This document shows positions 21,374 to 36,904 of a stretch of DNA of 60,295 bases, piece by piece. How positions within the stretch are numbered: position 1 is the first letter of the stretch; the number at the start of each line of letters is the position of its first letter. The notes under the pieces are model-generated. The model was not told where the DNA came from and made no database searches. It was given only the letters and a program-made list of their open reading frames with translations. The stretch is from Rhodoplanes sp. (GTDB lineage Bacteria > Pseudomonadota > Alphaproteobacteria > Rhizobiales > Xanthobacteraceae), in NCBI RefSeq assembly GCF_013377085.1, contig NZ_JACAAX010000042.1, forward strand, positions 1 through 60,295, written 5' to 3'. The translations under genes and the position numbers were made by a program.

Positions 21374-21854
21374 GATGCTGTGCCGCTCCTGTCGTATTCG
21401 CGGGGTGCGTCGTCCCGGCCTCGGCCCCGGCGGGCCGGGGCCCGTCGCCGCAACGTCCCGGCCGGGACACACGGCCGTTGTAGACAACGAGCGGGCGGCC
21501 CTTGGCAAGGATCGTGTCGGCTCGTCGCGCCGGCCCTACAGACGGCTCGTGACGTCAAGGTGACGCAGCCGGTTTGCCGGGCCGACACGAGCCCGAGGCG
21601 GCCGCGCCGGAGCGCTGGCCCGGCCGGTCGGCCTTCTGAATAGTCTCTGCACGTTGCGCGTGCAGGACGTCGGCTTGCGTGACCGTGCCGGCGACGCTAG
21701 AAGCGCGATGCGTCGCACCATGACATCGCAGAATGCGCGGTGCGTCACTGCCACGGGGGCCGACCCAGACCATGCCGTGACTGCATTTCCGTAAGGCCGC
21801 CGGCGCCCAAGCCCGGACCCCCGACCTGCCCCTCCCCGAACCGCAAGAGTCCCG
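21374..21854. other. 481-base divergent intergenic region
   Basis: Between the permease and the Cache-channel operon. It stays G+C-rich throughout; I see no ORF with a ribosome site, RNA gene or repeat family here. A weak promoter candidate toward the right is TTGCGT (near 21675) with TAGAAG about 17 bases on. It presumably contains the promoters of both flanking operons. Confidence 0.4.
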
Positions 21855-22940
21855 ATGTCCACCGAAACCCTGACTCCGCCCTCCGCGGCGGACGCCGGCG
21901 CGTCGACGCGTATCGCCGCGGCCTGGCGCCGCGCTGCGTCGCGCCGCGGCGCGTCCTGGATCGTCGCGCTGGTGCTCGGTGCCGTTCTGGCCGCGATGGT
22001 GTGGCTGCAGATGCACAGCCAGGACGAGGCGGACAGCCGCGACCGCGACACCCGCCTGCGGCTGGTCGCCGGCACGCTCAACGGCGCCTTCGACAATGCC
22101 GGCAAGTTCGCGCTGTCGCTCGCCGAGGCGACGGCCCGGCGTCCGGACGTGGTCGAGGCGCTGGCCGCCGGCGATCGCGGCCGCCTGCAGGTGCTCTCGC
22201 AGGGACCTTACGATTATCTCAGCCGGCAGGCGGGCGTGCAGATCTACGGCTACCACACCATGGATCTGCGCTATCTGCTGCGCATGCACCGGCTCGACGC
22301 GTTCGGCGACGACATCTCGGGCTTCCGCCCGATGATCGTCGCGGCGAACCGCGGCCGCCGCGCCCAGACCGGCTTCGAGATCGGCATCGCCGGCCTCGGC
22401 ATCCGCGGGGTTGCGCTGGTCGACCGCGGCGGCGCGTCGGCCGCTCCGGGCGGCGGGTCGGGTAATTCCGACCGGCAGCCGGTCGGCACCATGGAGGTCG
22501 GCCTCGACGTCCGGCCGATCCTCGACCTGGTCAAGGCCTCGACCAACACCGACATCGCCGTGGTGATCGCGCCCTCGATGGTCGGCGTCGCGCTCGATCC
22601 CAAGCTGCCGCGCTTCGGCGATCTGGTGCTGGCGCTGTCCACCGACGACGACCTGTTCGCCGCGATGCTGAAGACGACACGGCCGCGCGCCCTGCGCGAC
22701 GTCGAGGTCGACACGCGGGAGATCGAGGGGCGGCGCTTCAGCATGCTGTCGCAGCCGCTGGTCGACTTCTCGGGCCGGCAGGTCGGCATGACGATCGCCC
22801 TGGAGGAGATGGCGAACACGCGCGGGCGGCTGCGCACCGAGCTGATCGTCACGGCCTTGTGCGGCGGCATCCTCGCCTGGGTCGTCTTCGCCGTGCTGTT
22901 CCGCCACGCGCTCGCGGTCGTGCATCGGAGCCGGCGGTGA
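21855..22940 (+). CDS. Periplasmic double-Cache sensor protein without an output domain
   Basis: A 361-residue protein. Residues about 34-52 are a transmembrane helix (WIVALVLGAVLAAMVWLQM). A roughly 270-residue periplasmic region follows, resembling a dCache sensor: LRLVAGTLNGAFDNAGKFA helix, a QIYGYHTMDLRYLLRMHR loop, later FSMLSQPLVDFSGRQVGM. A second helix (LCGGILAWVVFAVLFRHAL) lies at the very C-terminus. After it only seven residues remain: there is no HAMP, methyl-accepting, kinase, cyclase or other signalling module. The gene overlaps the next by four bases, so translational coupling to the ion-channel gene is expected. Its role is probably ligand sensing for that channel; that is inference. 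Confidence 0.75.
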   Translation: MSTETLTPPSAADAGASTRIAAAWRRAASRRGASWIVALVLGAVLAAMVWLQMHSQDEADSRDRDTRLRLVAGTLNGAFDNAGKFALSLAEATARRPDVVEALAAGDRGRLQVLSQGPYDYLSRQAGVQIYGYHTMDLRYLLRMHRLDAFGDDISGFRPMIVAANRGRRAQTGFEIGIAGLGIRGVALVDRGGASAAPGGGSGNSDRQPVGTMEVGLDVRPILDLVKASTNTDIAVVIAPSMVGVALDPKLPRFGDLVLALSTDDDLFAAMLKTTRPRALRDVEVDTREIEGRRFSMLSQPLVDFSGRQVGMTIALEEMANTRGRLRTELIVTALCGGILAWVVFAVLFRHALAVVHRSRR

Positions 22941-24043
22941 GGCGGCACCTTCTCGCCGTCGCGCTGCTTTGCGTCTCGATCGGCGGTGGCTTCGCCGGAG
23001 AGCGCGCGGCCGGGCCCGCTACGCCCGGATTTGCCGCGCCCGCGCTGCCGGCGACCAGCCTGCCCGATTCGGTCGAGCTGCCGGTGCGGGTGCGGCTGGC
23101 GCTGCGGGTCCTCAACGTGCTCGACGTCAAGGAGACGGCCGGGCAGGGCCGCTTCCATGTCGAGATCACCCAGCGCTGGACCGATCCGCGGCTCACCTTC
23201 GACGCCGTCGCGGTCGGCTCCGGCCGCATCGATCGCATCGCCGGCGAGGCCGACGCGTATCTGGCCGGCATCTGGACGCCCGGGCTGGTCATCGACAATC
23301 AGATCGGCGGCAAGGAGTCGCGCACCGTCGCGGTCGCGACCTATGCCAATGGCGACGTCGTGCTGATCGAGCGGTTCGAGAGCGACTTCCGCTTCCGCAT
23401 GAACATGGACGCCTTTCCGTTCGACCGCCAGGAGCTGACGCTGTCGCTGTCGCTGCCGCGCTACGCCAAGCAGGAGGCGATCCTGATCGCCACCGAGACC
23501 GACCGGCAGCTCTCCGGCATCGAGGAGGCGCCCTCGATGGTCTACTGGCAGCCGATGCGGCTGCGCTTCGCCAACCAGGAGAGCATGGGCTGGAACGCCC
23601 GCAGCTATTCGCGGCTGGCCGTGACGGCCGTGCTGGCGCGCCACTCCGACCGCTACATCCTGCGCATCTTCGTGCCGCTGTTCGCCGTGCTCTCGGTGTC
23701 GCTGTTCGTGCTGTGGTCGCCGGCGCTGCGCGGGCAGGAGAAGGACAAGGGGACGATGATCTTCTCCTCGCTGCTGGCGCTCGCCGCGATCAGCTTCACG
23801 TTCGAGTCGAGCTTCCCGGGCTCGATCTCGCTCAACACGCCGGTCGCCCAGATGATCTCGCTCGGCTATCTGTATTTGGTGCTGGTGCTGATGATCGAGG
23901 TCGGCCTCACGGCGGCCTGCGCCGACCCCACCGCCCGCTTCCACGCCGGCTGCGTCGCCCTGCAGCGCCAGATCAAATGGGCGCTCCCTGTCATGATGCT
24001 GATCGTCTGCGCCGGCATCGCGGTGCGGGCCCTGCCGGGGTGA
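22937..24043 (+). CDS. Prokaryotic pentameric ligand-gated ion channel (Cys-loop receptor relative)
   Basis: A 368-residue protein from GTG 22937 (GGAG seven bases upstream; GTGA overlap with the sensor stop). Residues 1-20 are a signal peptide. Residues about 45-235 form a beta-rich ligand domain with the family hallmark FPFDRQ (160-165) in the position of the animal Cys-loop; the flanking Cys residues are absent, as in bacterial members. Four membrane segments follow: M1 about 240-260 with the conserved Pro (RIFVPLFAVLSVSLF), M2 about 272-292 (KGTMIFSSLLALAAISFTFE), M3 about 301-326 and M4 about 349-366. Length and order match bacterial channels such as GLIC. Ligand and ion selectivity are not readable from the sequence. 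Residues before M2 are mixed charge (EKDKG). Confidence 0.85.
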   Translation: MRRHLLAVALLCVSIGGGFAGERAAGPATPGFAAPALPATSLPDSVELPVRVRLALRVLNVLDVKETAGQGRFHVEITQRWTDPRLTFDAVAVGSGRIDRIAGEADAYLAGIWTPGLVIDNQIGGKESRTVAVATYANGDVVLIERFESDFRFRMNMDAFPFDRQELTLSLSLPRYAKQEAILIATETDRQLSGIEEAPSMVYWQPMRLRFANQESMGWNARSYSRLAVTAVLARHSDRYILRIFVPLFAVLSVSLFVLWSPALRGQEKDKGTMIFSSLLALAAISFTFESSFPGSISLNTPVAQMISLGYLYLVLVLMIEVGLTAACADPTARFHAGCVALQRQIKWALPVMMLIVCAGIAVRALPG

Positions 24044-24150
24044 CGGCGCCGGTCGGCGCGGCGCGCGGTCGCACGCCCGTGACCACCGGCGAGGGAACGC
24101 CCGCCGCTACGGCGCTGTTGAGGTACCGGGAACCAACAGTGGAGAGCGTC

Positions 24151-24225
24151 ATGCCGGTCATTCTGTGGTGGTTGGGTGTGCCGTTGAGCGTCGTCCTGGT
24201 CCTCTGGCTCGTCGGCGTCGTCTAG
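24151..24225 (+). CDS. Very small single-helix membrane protein (24 aa)
   Basis: ATG 24151 behind GGAGAG encodes a 24-residue, almost wholly hydrophobic peptide (MPVILWWLGVPLSVVLVLWL plus four residues). It is long enough for one transmembrane helix. Similar tiny hydrophobic peptides occur in other Rhizobiales genomes. It lies 107 bases past the channel gene on the same strand and may be a later part of that transcript. Small size limits confidence. Confidence 0.5.
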   Translation: MPVILWWLGVPLSVVLVLWLVGVV

Positions 24226-24237
24226 CCGCACAACGTG

Positions 24238-24322
24238 TAGGGCGCAATGAGCGTAGCGAATTGCGCCGAAAAAGCCTTCAAAAGCCGTCGCTGCGCAATT
24301 CGCTGCGCTCATTGCGCCCTAC
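24238..24322. repeat. Palindromic element GTAGGGCGCAATGAGCG...ATTGCGCCCTAC, left copy
   Basis: An 85-base element with terminal inverted repeats of roughly 35 bases (GTAGGGCGCAATGAGCGTAG against its complement at the right end) around a short AAAAGCC-containing centre. A second copy at 26410-26489 lies on the other side of the ygiQ gene. The size and termini resemble a MITE or palindromic unit; no transposase is nearby. Confidence 0.85.
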
Positions 24323-24377
24323 TAGGACCACGAAGACTTGGTTGAACTGACGGGCTGGGGGCTTTAAGCCTTCTGCC

Positions 24378-26405
<2,028 letters not shown>

Positions 26406-26409
26406 CGCC

Positions 26410-26489
26410 GTAGGGCGCAATGAGCGCAGCGAATTGCGCCGAGAAGAACGCTTCTACCGGCGCAATTCGCTGCGCTCATTGCGCCCTAC
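26410..26489. repeat. Palindromic element GTAGGGCGCAATGAGCG...GCGCCCTAC, right copy
   Basis: Same family as 24238-24322 with a slightly shorter, different centre (GAGAAGAACGCTTCTACCGG). It begins four bases after the ygiQ stop and ends just before the stop of the convergent gene; its stem could serve as a bidirectional terminator. Confidence 0.85.
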
Positions 26490-26497
26490 GAGGCTGG

Positions 26498-35560: not shown

Positions 35561-36904
35561 ATGTCAAAGACGTCTCTGCCGACTCGTCTGGCATTCATTC
35601 GCATCGACGATGAGGTCCGAAGCTGCCTGCGCGAACTACAGCCGCTGGTGGCGCGCGTGCTGCCGGGGTTGCTCGACGACTTCTACGCACATGTGGACCA
35701 GTTCCCCGACATGGCGCGGATGTTCCGCGACAAGGCGCACCAGACGCACGCCCGCGACAAGCAGATCAAGCACTGGGCCATGATCACCGAGGGAAAGTTC
35801 GACCAGAGCTACGTCGACTCGGTGACCCGGATCGGCAAGGCGCACCATCGGCTCGGCCTCGACCCGCAATGGTACATCGCCTCCTACAGCATCGTCATGG
35901 GCGGGCTGCAGCGGGCGATCGAGACGGAGATCGACAGCGGCCTGTTCGGCAAGAAGGCGCGGGAGAAGCGGGCCCACAAGGCGAGGCTGCTGGCCGCCAT
36001 CACGACGGCGGCGCTGCTCGACATGGACTTCTCGATCTCGGTCTATCTGGAATCGGGCCTGACGGCGAAGCAGGAGCTGATCGACAATCTGAGCAGCGCG
36101 TTCAAGAACGTCATCGACACCGTGTCGGCCGCCTCGACCGAGCTGCAGGCGACGGCCGGCTCGTTGAGCGAGACCGCGCGGGCGACCACCGGCCTCACCG
36201 CGGAGGCGGCGGGAGCCTCCGAGGAGGCCTCCGGCAATGTCCAGGCCGTGGCGGCCGCGACCGAGGAGCTCAGCGGCTCGGTGCACGAGATCGCCCGCCA
36301 GGTGCAGGATTCCAACCGCATCGCCAGCGAGGCCGTGGCCCAGGCGCAGAAGACGGACAGCCGGATGGGCGAGCTGTCGCAGGCGGCCAACCGCATCGGC
36401 GACGTGGTGAAGCTCATCACGGCGATCGCCGAGCAGACCAATCTGCTGGCGCTGAACGCCACCATCGAGGCGGCGCGGGCCGGCGAGGCCGGCAAGGGCT
36501 TCGCTGTCGTCGCCTCGGAGGTGAAGGCGCTGGCTGCCCAGACCGCCAAGGCGACCGGCGACATCGGCGGCCAGATCGCCGCCATGCAGGCCGTGACCCA
36601 GGACTCGGTCTCGGCCATCAAGGAGATCGGCACGACCATCGGCCACATTTCCGAGATCAGCGCCGCCATCGCGGCGGCCGTCGAGCAGCAGGGCGCGGCC
36701 ACCAAGGAGATCGCCGGCAACGTCCACCGCGCCTCCGAGGGGACCCGGCAGGTCGCCTGCACCATCGCCAACGTCAACAGTGGCGCGTCCGAGACCGGCG
36801 CGGCGGCCGAGCAGGTGCTGATGTCGGCGCGGTCGCTCGCCCAGGAGAGCACGCGCCTCAACGATGCGCTGAAGCAGTTCGTCTCCTCGGTGCGGGCGGC
36901 CTGA
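35561..36904 (+). CDS. Globin-coupled methyl-accepting chemotaxis protein (HemAT-like)
   Basis: A 447-residue soluble chemoreceptor: no transmembrane segment. Residues about 10-170 are a globin-coupled sensor domain; H95 in [14 protein letters not shown] aligns with the proximal heme His of HemAT. The MCP signalling domain fills about 190-447: a central hairpin tip around [21 protein letters not shown] and the adaptor-binding [15 protein letters not shown]. It senses oxygen or another gas and signals via CheA/CheW; no che genes are in the window. It lacks a C-terminal CheR-tether pentapeptide. Strong candidate for CtrA control. Confidence 0.92.

Follow-up and report, generated by a model that had tools for sequence, protein, structure and literature searches.

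The window that we analysed (60,295 nucleotides of Rhodoplanes sp. DNA, the whole of contig G000:C37 of a 6.48 Mb genome) contains two overlapping genes on the forward strand, a dCache_3 sensor gene and directly behind it a gene for a pLGIC subunit (Table 1). A preliminary description of this DNA had read the first product as a periplasmic Cache protein held between two transmembrane (TM) helices and devoid of an output domain. Our results agree on each point: two PAS-like lobes lie between two TM helices, PF14827 is matched above its cut-off, and Pfam gave no match to HAMP, MCPsignal or any other output domain in the window's sensor, which ends 13 residues after TM2. The predicted fold (pLDDT 87) matched Cache sensors in structure searches, with the distal lobe being CitA-like. 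When the sensor was used as a sequence query against the PDB, no Cache structure was returned; the link to Cache structures runs through the predicted fold only.

Table 1. Features of the sensor-channel locus (window positions)
Feature	Position	Strand	Basis
dCache_3 sensor gene, no output domain	21855..22940	+	361 aa; PF14827 42.1 bits (cut-off 25.7); AF2 pLDDT 87.0, pTM 0.76
Sensor TM1, residues 33-51 (about)	21951..22007	+	hydropathy; inside model helix 14-94
Membrane-distal Cache lobe, about residues 73-228, CitA-like fold	22071..22538	+	
R143-x-H145 codons; R143 aligned with DcuS R107	22281..22289	+	R143 in 42/42, H145 in 38/42; DcuS alignment
R184 codon, aligned with DcuS R147	22404..22406	+	R in 37/42 sensors, including all 32 of the window's subgroup
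Membrane-proximal Cache lobe, about residues 233-318	22551..22808	+	AF2 secondary structure; DctB match spans 57-320
Sensor TM2, residues 330-348 (about), then 13 residues to the end	22842..22898	+	hydropathy
GTGA overlap of sensor stop and channel start	22937..22940	+	40/42 distinct pairs allow a spacing of -4 or -1
pLGIC subunit gene	22937..24043	+	368 aa, GTG start; PF02931 64.8 bits (cut-off 26)
Channel ligand-binding domain	23072..23644	+	PF02931 match
FPFDRQ, residues 160-165	23414..23431	+	channel sequence and alignment
Loop-C region GWNARSYSR, residues 218-226, subfamily-specific	23588..23614	+	W219 in 42/42; loop C is a reading of the alignment
M1, contains P247	23657..23713	+	hydropathy, AF2 secondary structure, alignment
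M2 pore helix; acidic -1' is residue 270	23744..23812	+	register via GLIC alignment
M3	23840..23908	+	hydropathy, AF2 secondary structure
M4	23972..24031	+	hydropathy, AF2 secondary structure

The second gene had been described as a Cys-loop-type ligand-gated ion channel. The features named in its favour are all present, namely a signal-peptide-like start, the FPFDRQ motif, the M1 proline and four TM helices, as judged by sequence, hydropathy and the AF2 model. F160, P161, D163 and P247 are each conserved in 42/42 distinct pairs, and F162 in 41. The AF2 model has the family fold, a beta-strand-rich domain and four TM helices, at a middling pLDDT of 68.8 (residues 17-47 and 182-202 fall below 50; the other four models scored 48-52). 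In a Foldseek search with this model the best match was DeCLIC (E 2.1e-17), and all 50 of the matches listed were pLGICs; GLIC and ELIC are among the PDB relatives found by sequence. Membership of the pLGIC family, confirmed by the PF02931 match above its cut-off, therefore stands, but the Cys-loop label does not: there are no cysteines flanking FPFD or anywhere else in the ligand-binding domain, which makes 'pLGIC' the more exact term. Bacterial pLGICs are not known to carry the Cys-loop cysteines of animal members, so the missing disulfide does not exclude family membership. This channel is the only PF02931 match in its own genome, and a plasmid search with the channel as query gave no match.

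The -1' position, which we take to be the ion-selectivity site of the pLGIC family, is aspartate or glutamate in 38 of the 42 channels. By this family rule an acidic residue ahead of the pore points to cation selectivity, and the channel is probably cation-selective. A legend in Tasneem et al. (PMC549065) assigns glutamate to cation channels and arginine to anion channels. GLIC-type proton gating was also considered; at the one proton site compared, GLIC His235 aligns with a leucine of the channel. The motif around W219 (W219 itself in 42/42), in what we read as loop C, is specific to the subfamily and unconserved in the 20 other pLGICs compared; it could be the channel's own ligand site or a contact with the sensor. 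Because this motif is kept, the channel may have a ligand of its own as well.

The four-base overlap reported earlier is the GTGA shared by the sensor stop and the channel start, and GGAG lies six bases before the channel GTG. A start codon allowing a 4- or 1-base overlap exists in 40 of 42 pairs (21/21, 9/10 and 10/11), the exceptions being L036, whose channel frame is offset from the ATG, and L124, with a spacing of +1. This arrangement suggests that the channel is probably translationally coupled to the sensor gene ahead of it. A scan of 21450-24350 found neither a sigma-70-type promoter nor a terminator.

Downstream of the channel lies a hydrophobic ORF of 24 residues (MPVILWWLGVPLSVVLVLWLVGVV, window 24151-24225), followed by two REP-like palindromes (24237-24322 and 26409-26490; arms of 30-33 nt, 97-100% complementary) that flank a 675-codon ORF at 24378-26405. 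A PF00015 chemoreceptor signalling domain is found at 36299-36793, about 12 kb downstream of the pair.

Distribution of the sensor-channel pair

A search with the channel alone returned 18 loci from Rhodoplanes, Chelatococcus, Bosea, Pseudolabrys, Bradyrhizobium and other genera. Together with the first relatives these make 23 loci, 21 of them distinct, and in all of them a sensor homologue lies directly upstream. In a survey of the order (397 genomes) we found 27 PF02931 matches in 24 genomes: 11 belong to this channel type and all have the sensor, and 16 are of another type, none having the sensor within 1.5 kb on either side. Surveys of the class (385 genomes) and the phylum (398) added one linked channel, L083, whose genome belongs to another class, and seven sensorless matches. 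A survey of the family (341 genomes) yielded 13 further linked loci, two of which repeat earlier ones, and one sensorless channel fragment; its genus g28 includes seven linked genomes.

In total, every one of the 42 distinct complete channels in this subfamily has the sensor paired directly with it, and this Cache gene stands beside 0/23 of the other PF02931 matches. The linkage that the preliminary description proposed to check in relatives is thus retained throughout. With the channel profile matched and a Cache fold predicted for the first protein, none of the three refuting outcomes named in that description was obtained. The count covers complete channels; the fragment L131 (26-27 profile positions, no Cache gene) falls outside it. 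Excluded as repeats are L114 (the same as L011) and L116 (the same as L020), and further repeats of counted loci are L001 and L115 (window), L002, L117 (L006), L003, L118 (L007), L122 (L004) and L132 (L130). One genome carries two divergent sensor-channel pairs, L035 and L047, on a single contig (G099:C1).

We compared the flanks of 18 loci between genera, using frames of at least 100 codons and an E-value of 1e-15, and saw no third conserved neighbour. The between-genus flank matches are of low identity (26-39% for the best among the matches listed for the 18 loci), and so no third gene was seen travelling with the pair. Chance adjacency was rejected, since 42/42 distinct pairs are linked while their flanks differ between genera.

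Phylogenetic analysis placed the channels of 31 pairs on one side of a branch from 20 other pLGICs with support of 100/99, and the sensors of the same number of pairs on one side of a branch from 20 chemoreceptor-type dCache proteins, likewise with 100/99. The channel tree used 20 of the 23 non-linked loci, omitting L045 (a split match) as well as L082 and L086 (no channel-profile match). The sensor tree used 20 chemoreceptor-type loci, with L076 omitted because it is cut by a contig end; of the order-survey matches lacking a locus, only the one from the window's own genome, L087, was included. Pairwise distances in the sensor and channel families correlate with r = 0.96 over the 31 pairs, a value that, like the agreement of the trees, is also expected from joint inheritance without contact. 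Taken together, the gene-order data indicate that the pair is a conserved and exclusive two-gene subfamily, present in several genera and at least two classes.

Origin and candidate ligand site of the sensor

Beyond the linked sensors and four short frames at contig ends, the sensor profile matched frames 583-808 codons long in the order survey; among the five candidates scored per genome, no complete bare Cache protein of this type was found away from a channel. The relative in the window's own genome, L087, is a dCache_3-HAMP-MCPsignal protein by Pfam. It is the only one of the 20 chemoreceptor-type rows on which Pfam was run, the other 19 being assigned by frame length and the aligned HAMP region. 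The same genome has 40 PF00015 matches, at least one of them with a dCache_3 domain, and a single PF17203 match, in a chemoreceptor-looking frame.

Ten early-branching sensors extend 53-77 residues past the profile match, and these tails carry a HAMP-like pattern. We scored the tails with a profile built from the 20 chemoreceptor-type rows against 2000 shuffles. For eight of the ten, only 0-5 of the 2000 shuffles reached the observed score; the other two, L005 (493 of 2000) and L047 (253 of 2000), were not distinct from shuffles, and neither were two negatives from the window's subgroup, L004 (801 of 2000) and L036 (158 of 2000). Pfam HAMP was hit in two of seven sensors scanned, L035 (E 0.0056) and L092 (E 0.031), both under the cut-off. 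In the window's subgroup 8-13 residues follow TM2 (20 sensors measured). The simplest reading of these tails is that the sensor arose by stepwise loss of an MCP-like output.

The Cache motif itself is well preserved. R143, D153, R158, G173, G180, G211 and G216 are each present in 42/42 pair sensors and in 20/20 chemoreceptor-type rows, and within the window's subgroup all 32 sensors have R143, H145, R158 and R184; R184 is replaced by phenylalanine in five early-branching sensors and in one of the 20 chemoreceptor-type rows. When the sensors are aligned with DcuS and DpiB of E. coli, R143 stands opposite DcuS R107 and R184 opposite R147, with H145 one position off H110, at low identity and with weak hhalign support (probability 4.9, E 0.008, sensors versus DcuS/DpiB). 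PMC12772337 lists the three DcuS residues, R107, H110 and R147, as key to the pocket for C4-dicarboxylates. With hhalign this weak, the organic-acid idea draws on the predicted fold and a low-identity alignment, and we propose an organic acid as the sensor's ligand tentatively, at somewhat less than even odds.

Function of the pair and comparison with known systems

At this locus, and as a rule across the subfamily, a predicted periplasmic dCache_3 receptor without an output is made just before a pLGIC subunit, from overlapping frames. We favour the reading that the two genes form a dedicated sensor-channel unit, in which the sensor would bind a small molecule and alter channel opening, with ion flux as the readout; we put its probability at roughly 0.5. 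In this scheme the sensor would descend from a HAMP-containing protein of the chemoreceptor type that lost its cytoplasmic output. It would bind a small molecule, perhaps an organic acid, in the membrane-distal lobe, associate within the membrane with the channel, a probably cation-selective pentamer, and change its opening so that ion flux becomes the readout. The HAMP-like relics and the lack of a third neighbour in 18 flanks lend further support to the channel as the sensor's output. A bolder version holds that a chemoreceptor lineage lost its tail and was re-wired onto a pLGIC, so that an organic-acid-binding Cache subunit would directly gate a cation channel, which would amount to a bacterial ionotropic receptor whose ligand-sensing subunit is a protein of its own; this we regard as conceivable, at about one chance in three.

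Four other explanations have to be weighed against the sensor-channel unit. The sensor might act as a collector that presents solute to the orthosteric site of the channel without lasting allosteric contact. The conserved, subfamily-specific loop C that the channel retains (W219 in 42/42) would suit such a hand-over, and preliminary concentration or sensing of ligand was proposed for operonic periplasmic binding proteins and Cache proteins in the portion of Tasneem et al. (PMC549065) available to us. The two-TM anchor and the HAMP-like tails of early-branching relatives, however, seem to fit a protein that signals across the membrane better than a free binding protein, and we consider a collector unlikely. 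The position of the sensor gene, first and probably translationally coupled, would also fit a subunit serving mainly assembly or trafficking of the channel, with ligand binding secondary or lost; there is a precedent in animal alpha2delta subunits, which affect channel trafficking according to the abstract consulted. A mere scaffold would not need Cache motif residues, and yet these are conserved as in chemoreceptor-type relatives, which leaves an assembly role quite improbable. Co-expression could by itself keep the operon together if sensor and channel acted separately within one regulon, but the linkage is exclusive although the flanks differ between genera, and the sensor has no other visible output; we judge this explanation to be very improbable. 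Signalling by the sensor to other receptors, for instance by pairing with chemoreceptors and with the channel as a parallel output, has partners at hand in the 40 PF00015 matches of the genome (at least one with dCache_3), but it is hardly credible given that the bare sensor was unseen away from the channel in the order survey (five candidates per genome), though chemoreceptor-type dCache_3 proteins are common there.

The preliminary description had suspected that the concept of a dedicated sensor-channel unit was not wholly new, and rightly so. Tasneem et al. (2004, PMC549065) described a predicted operon in Rhodopseudomonas that joins a stand-alone Cache gene to a pLGIC gene, and they proposed that the two products cooperate and have a part in chemotaxis. 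Their ART-LGIC and Cache genes form the same type of predicted operon as the window's pair, as compared by description; the available portion of that paper deals with one genome and gives no Cache subtype, HAMP relic or ligand site. The idea of a Cache-pLGIC pair is therefore already known, and what our analysis adds is the exclusive two-gene subfamily, the traceable origin and the candidate ligand class. Among the matches listed in the open-licence literature there was no experimental study of such a pair. In the domain counts available from Upadhyay et al. (PMC4822843), no dCache_3 was counted with ion-channel partner domains, the only such partners being VWA_N and VGCC_alpha2.

The window channel shares its fold and core motifs with GLIC and ELIC, at 15-21% identity among the structural matches listed. 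For the ELIC operon, the available portion of the ELIC paper mentions a gene annotated as glutamate decarboxylase and no Cache gene, whereas the window pair has one. DeCLIC, the best Foldseek match of the channel, resembles the pair in having an additional module, but there the N-terminal module is fused to the channel and here the sensor is a separate two-TM protein. The dCache_3-HAMP-MCPsignal chemoreceptors (e.g. L087, G000:C21) have the sensor's domain family and motif; unlike the window's sensor, which stops shortly after TM2, they carry HAMP and MCP signal domains. The calcium-channel alpha2delta protein is a Cache-bearing ion-channel subunit that binds amino acids, according to the part of the source available, and its layout resembles the window pair by analogy only: it contains dCache_1 rather than dCache_3, has a VWA domain and serves an unrelated voltage-gated channel.

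The natural ligands and roles of bacterial pLGICs are, to our knowledge, mostly unknown. A subfamily whose channel consistently comes with a Cache sensor of its own provides candidates for both a partner subunit and a ligand class, in a simple system of two genes. If the proposed mechanism is true, the pair would show how the output of a chemoreceptor could be swapped for an ion channel, and the degenerate HAMP-like tails would be traces of that exchange.

Two other gene arrangements around pLGICs were observed. In genus g100 of the same order, a different pLGIC lies in a four-gene cluster in 4/4 g100 genomes with a channel match (L100:2944-7950 in G182; L099 and L109 in G334, L107 in G348 and L108 in G375). 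The cluster encodes a glutamate decarboxylase (TIGR01788, 414 bits against a cut-off of 380, in G182, the one genome scanned), the pLGIC, a Cache sensor (PF22673, 29.5 bits against 27) whose C-terminal part has no domain assignment, and an MFS transporter. This is a second Cache-pLGIC association, beside a GABA-making enzyme, and it recalls the decarboxylase that the available portion of the ELIC paper places near ELIC. At L105:3-5513 (G815), the genes after a pLGIC gene encode a periplasmic binding protein of the phosphonate type (PF12974, 221 bits) and a protein resembling hybrid histidine kinases.
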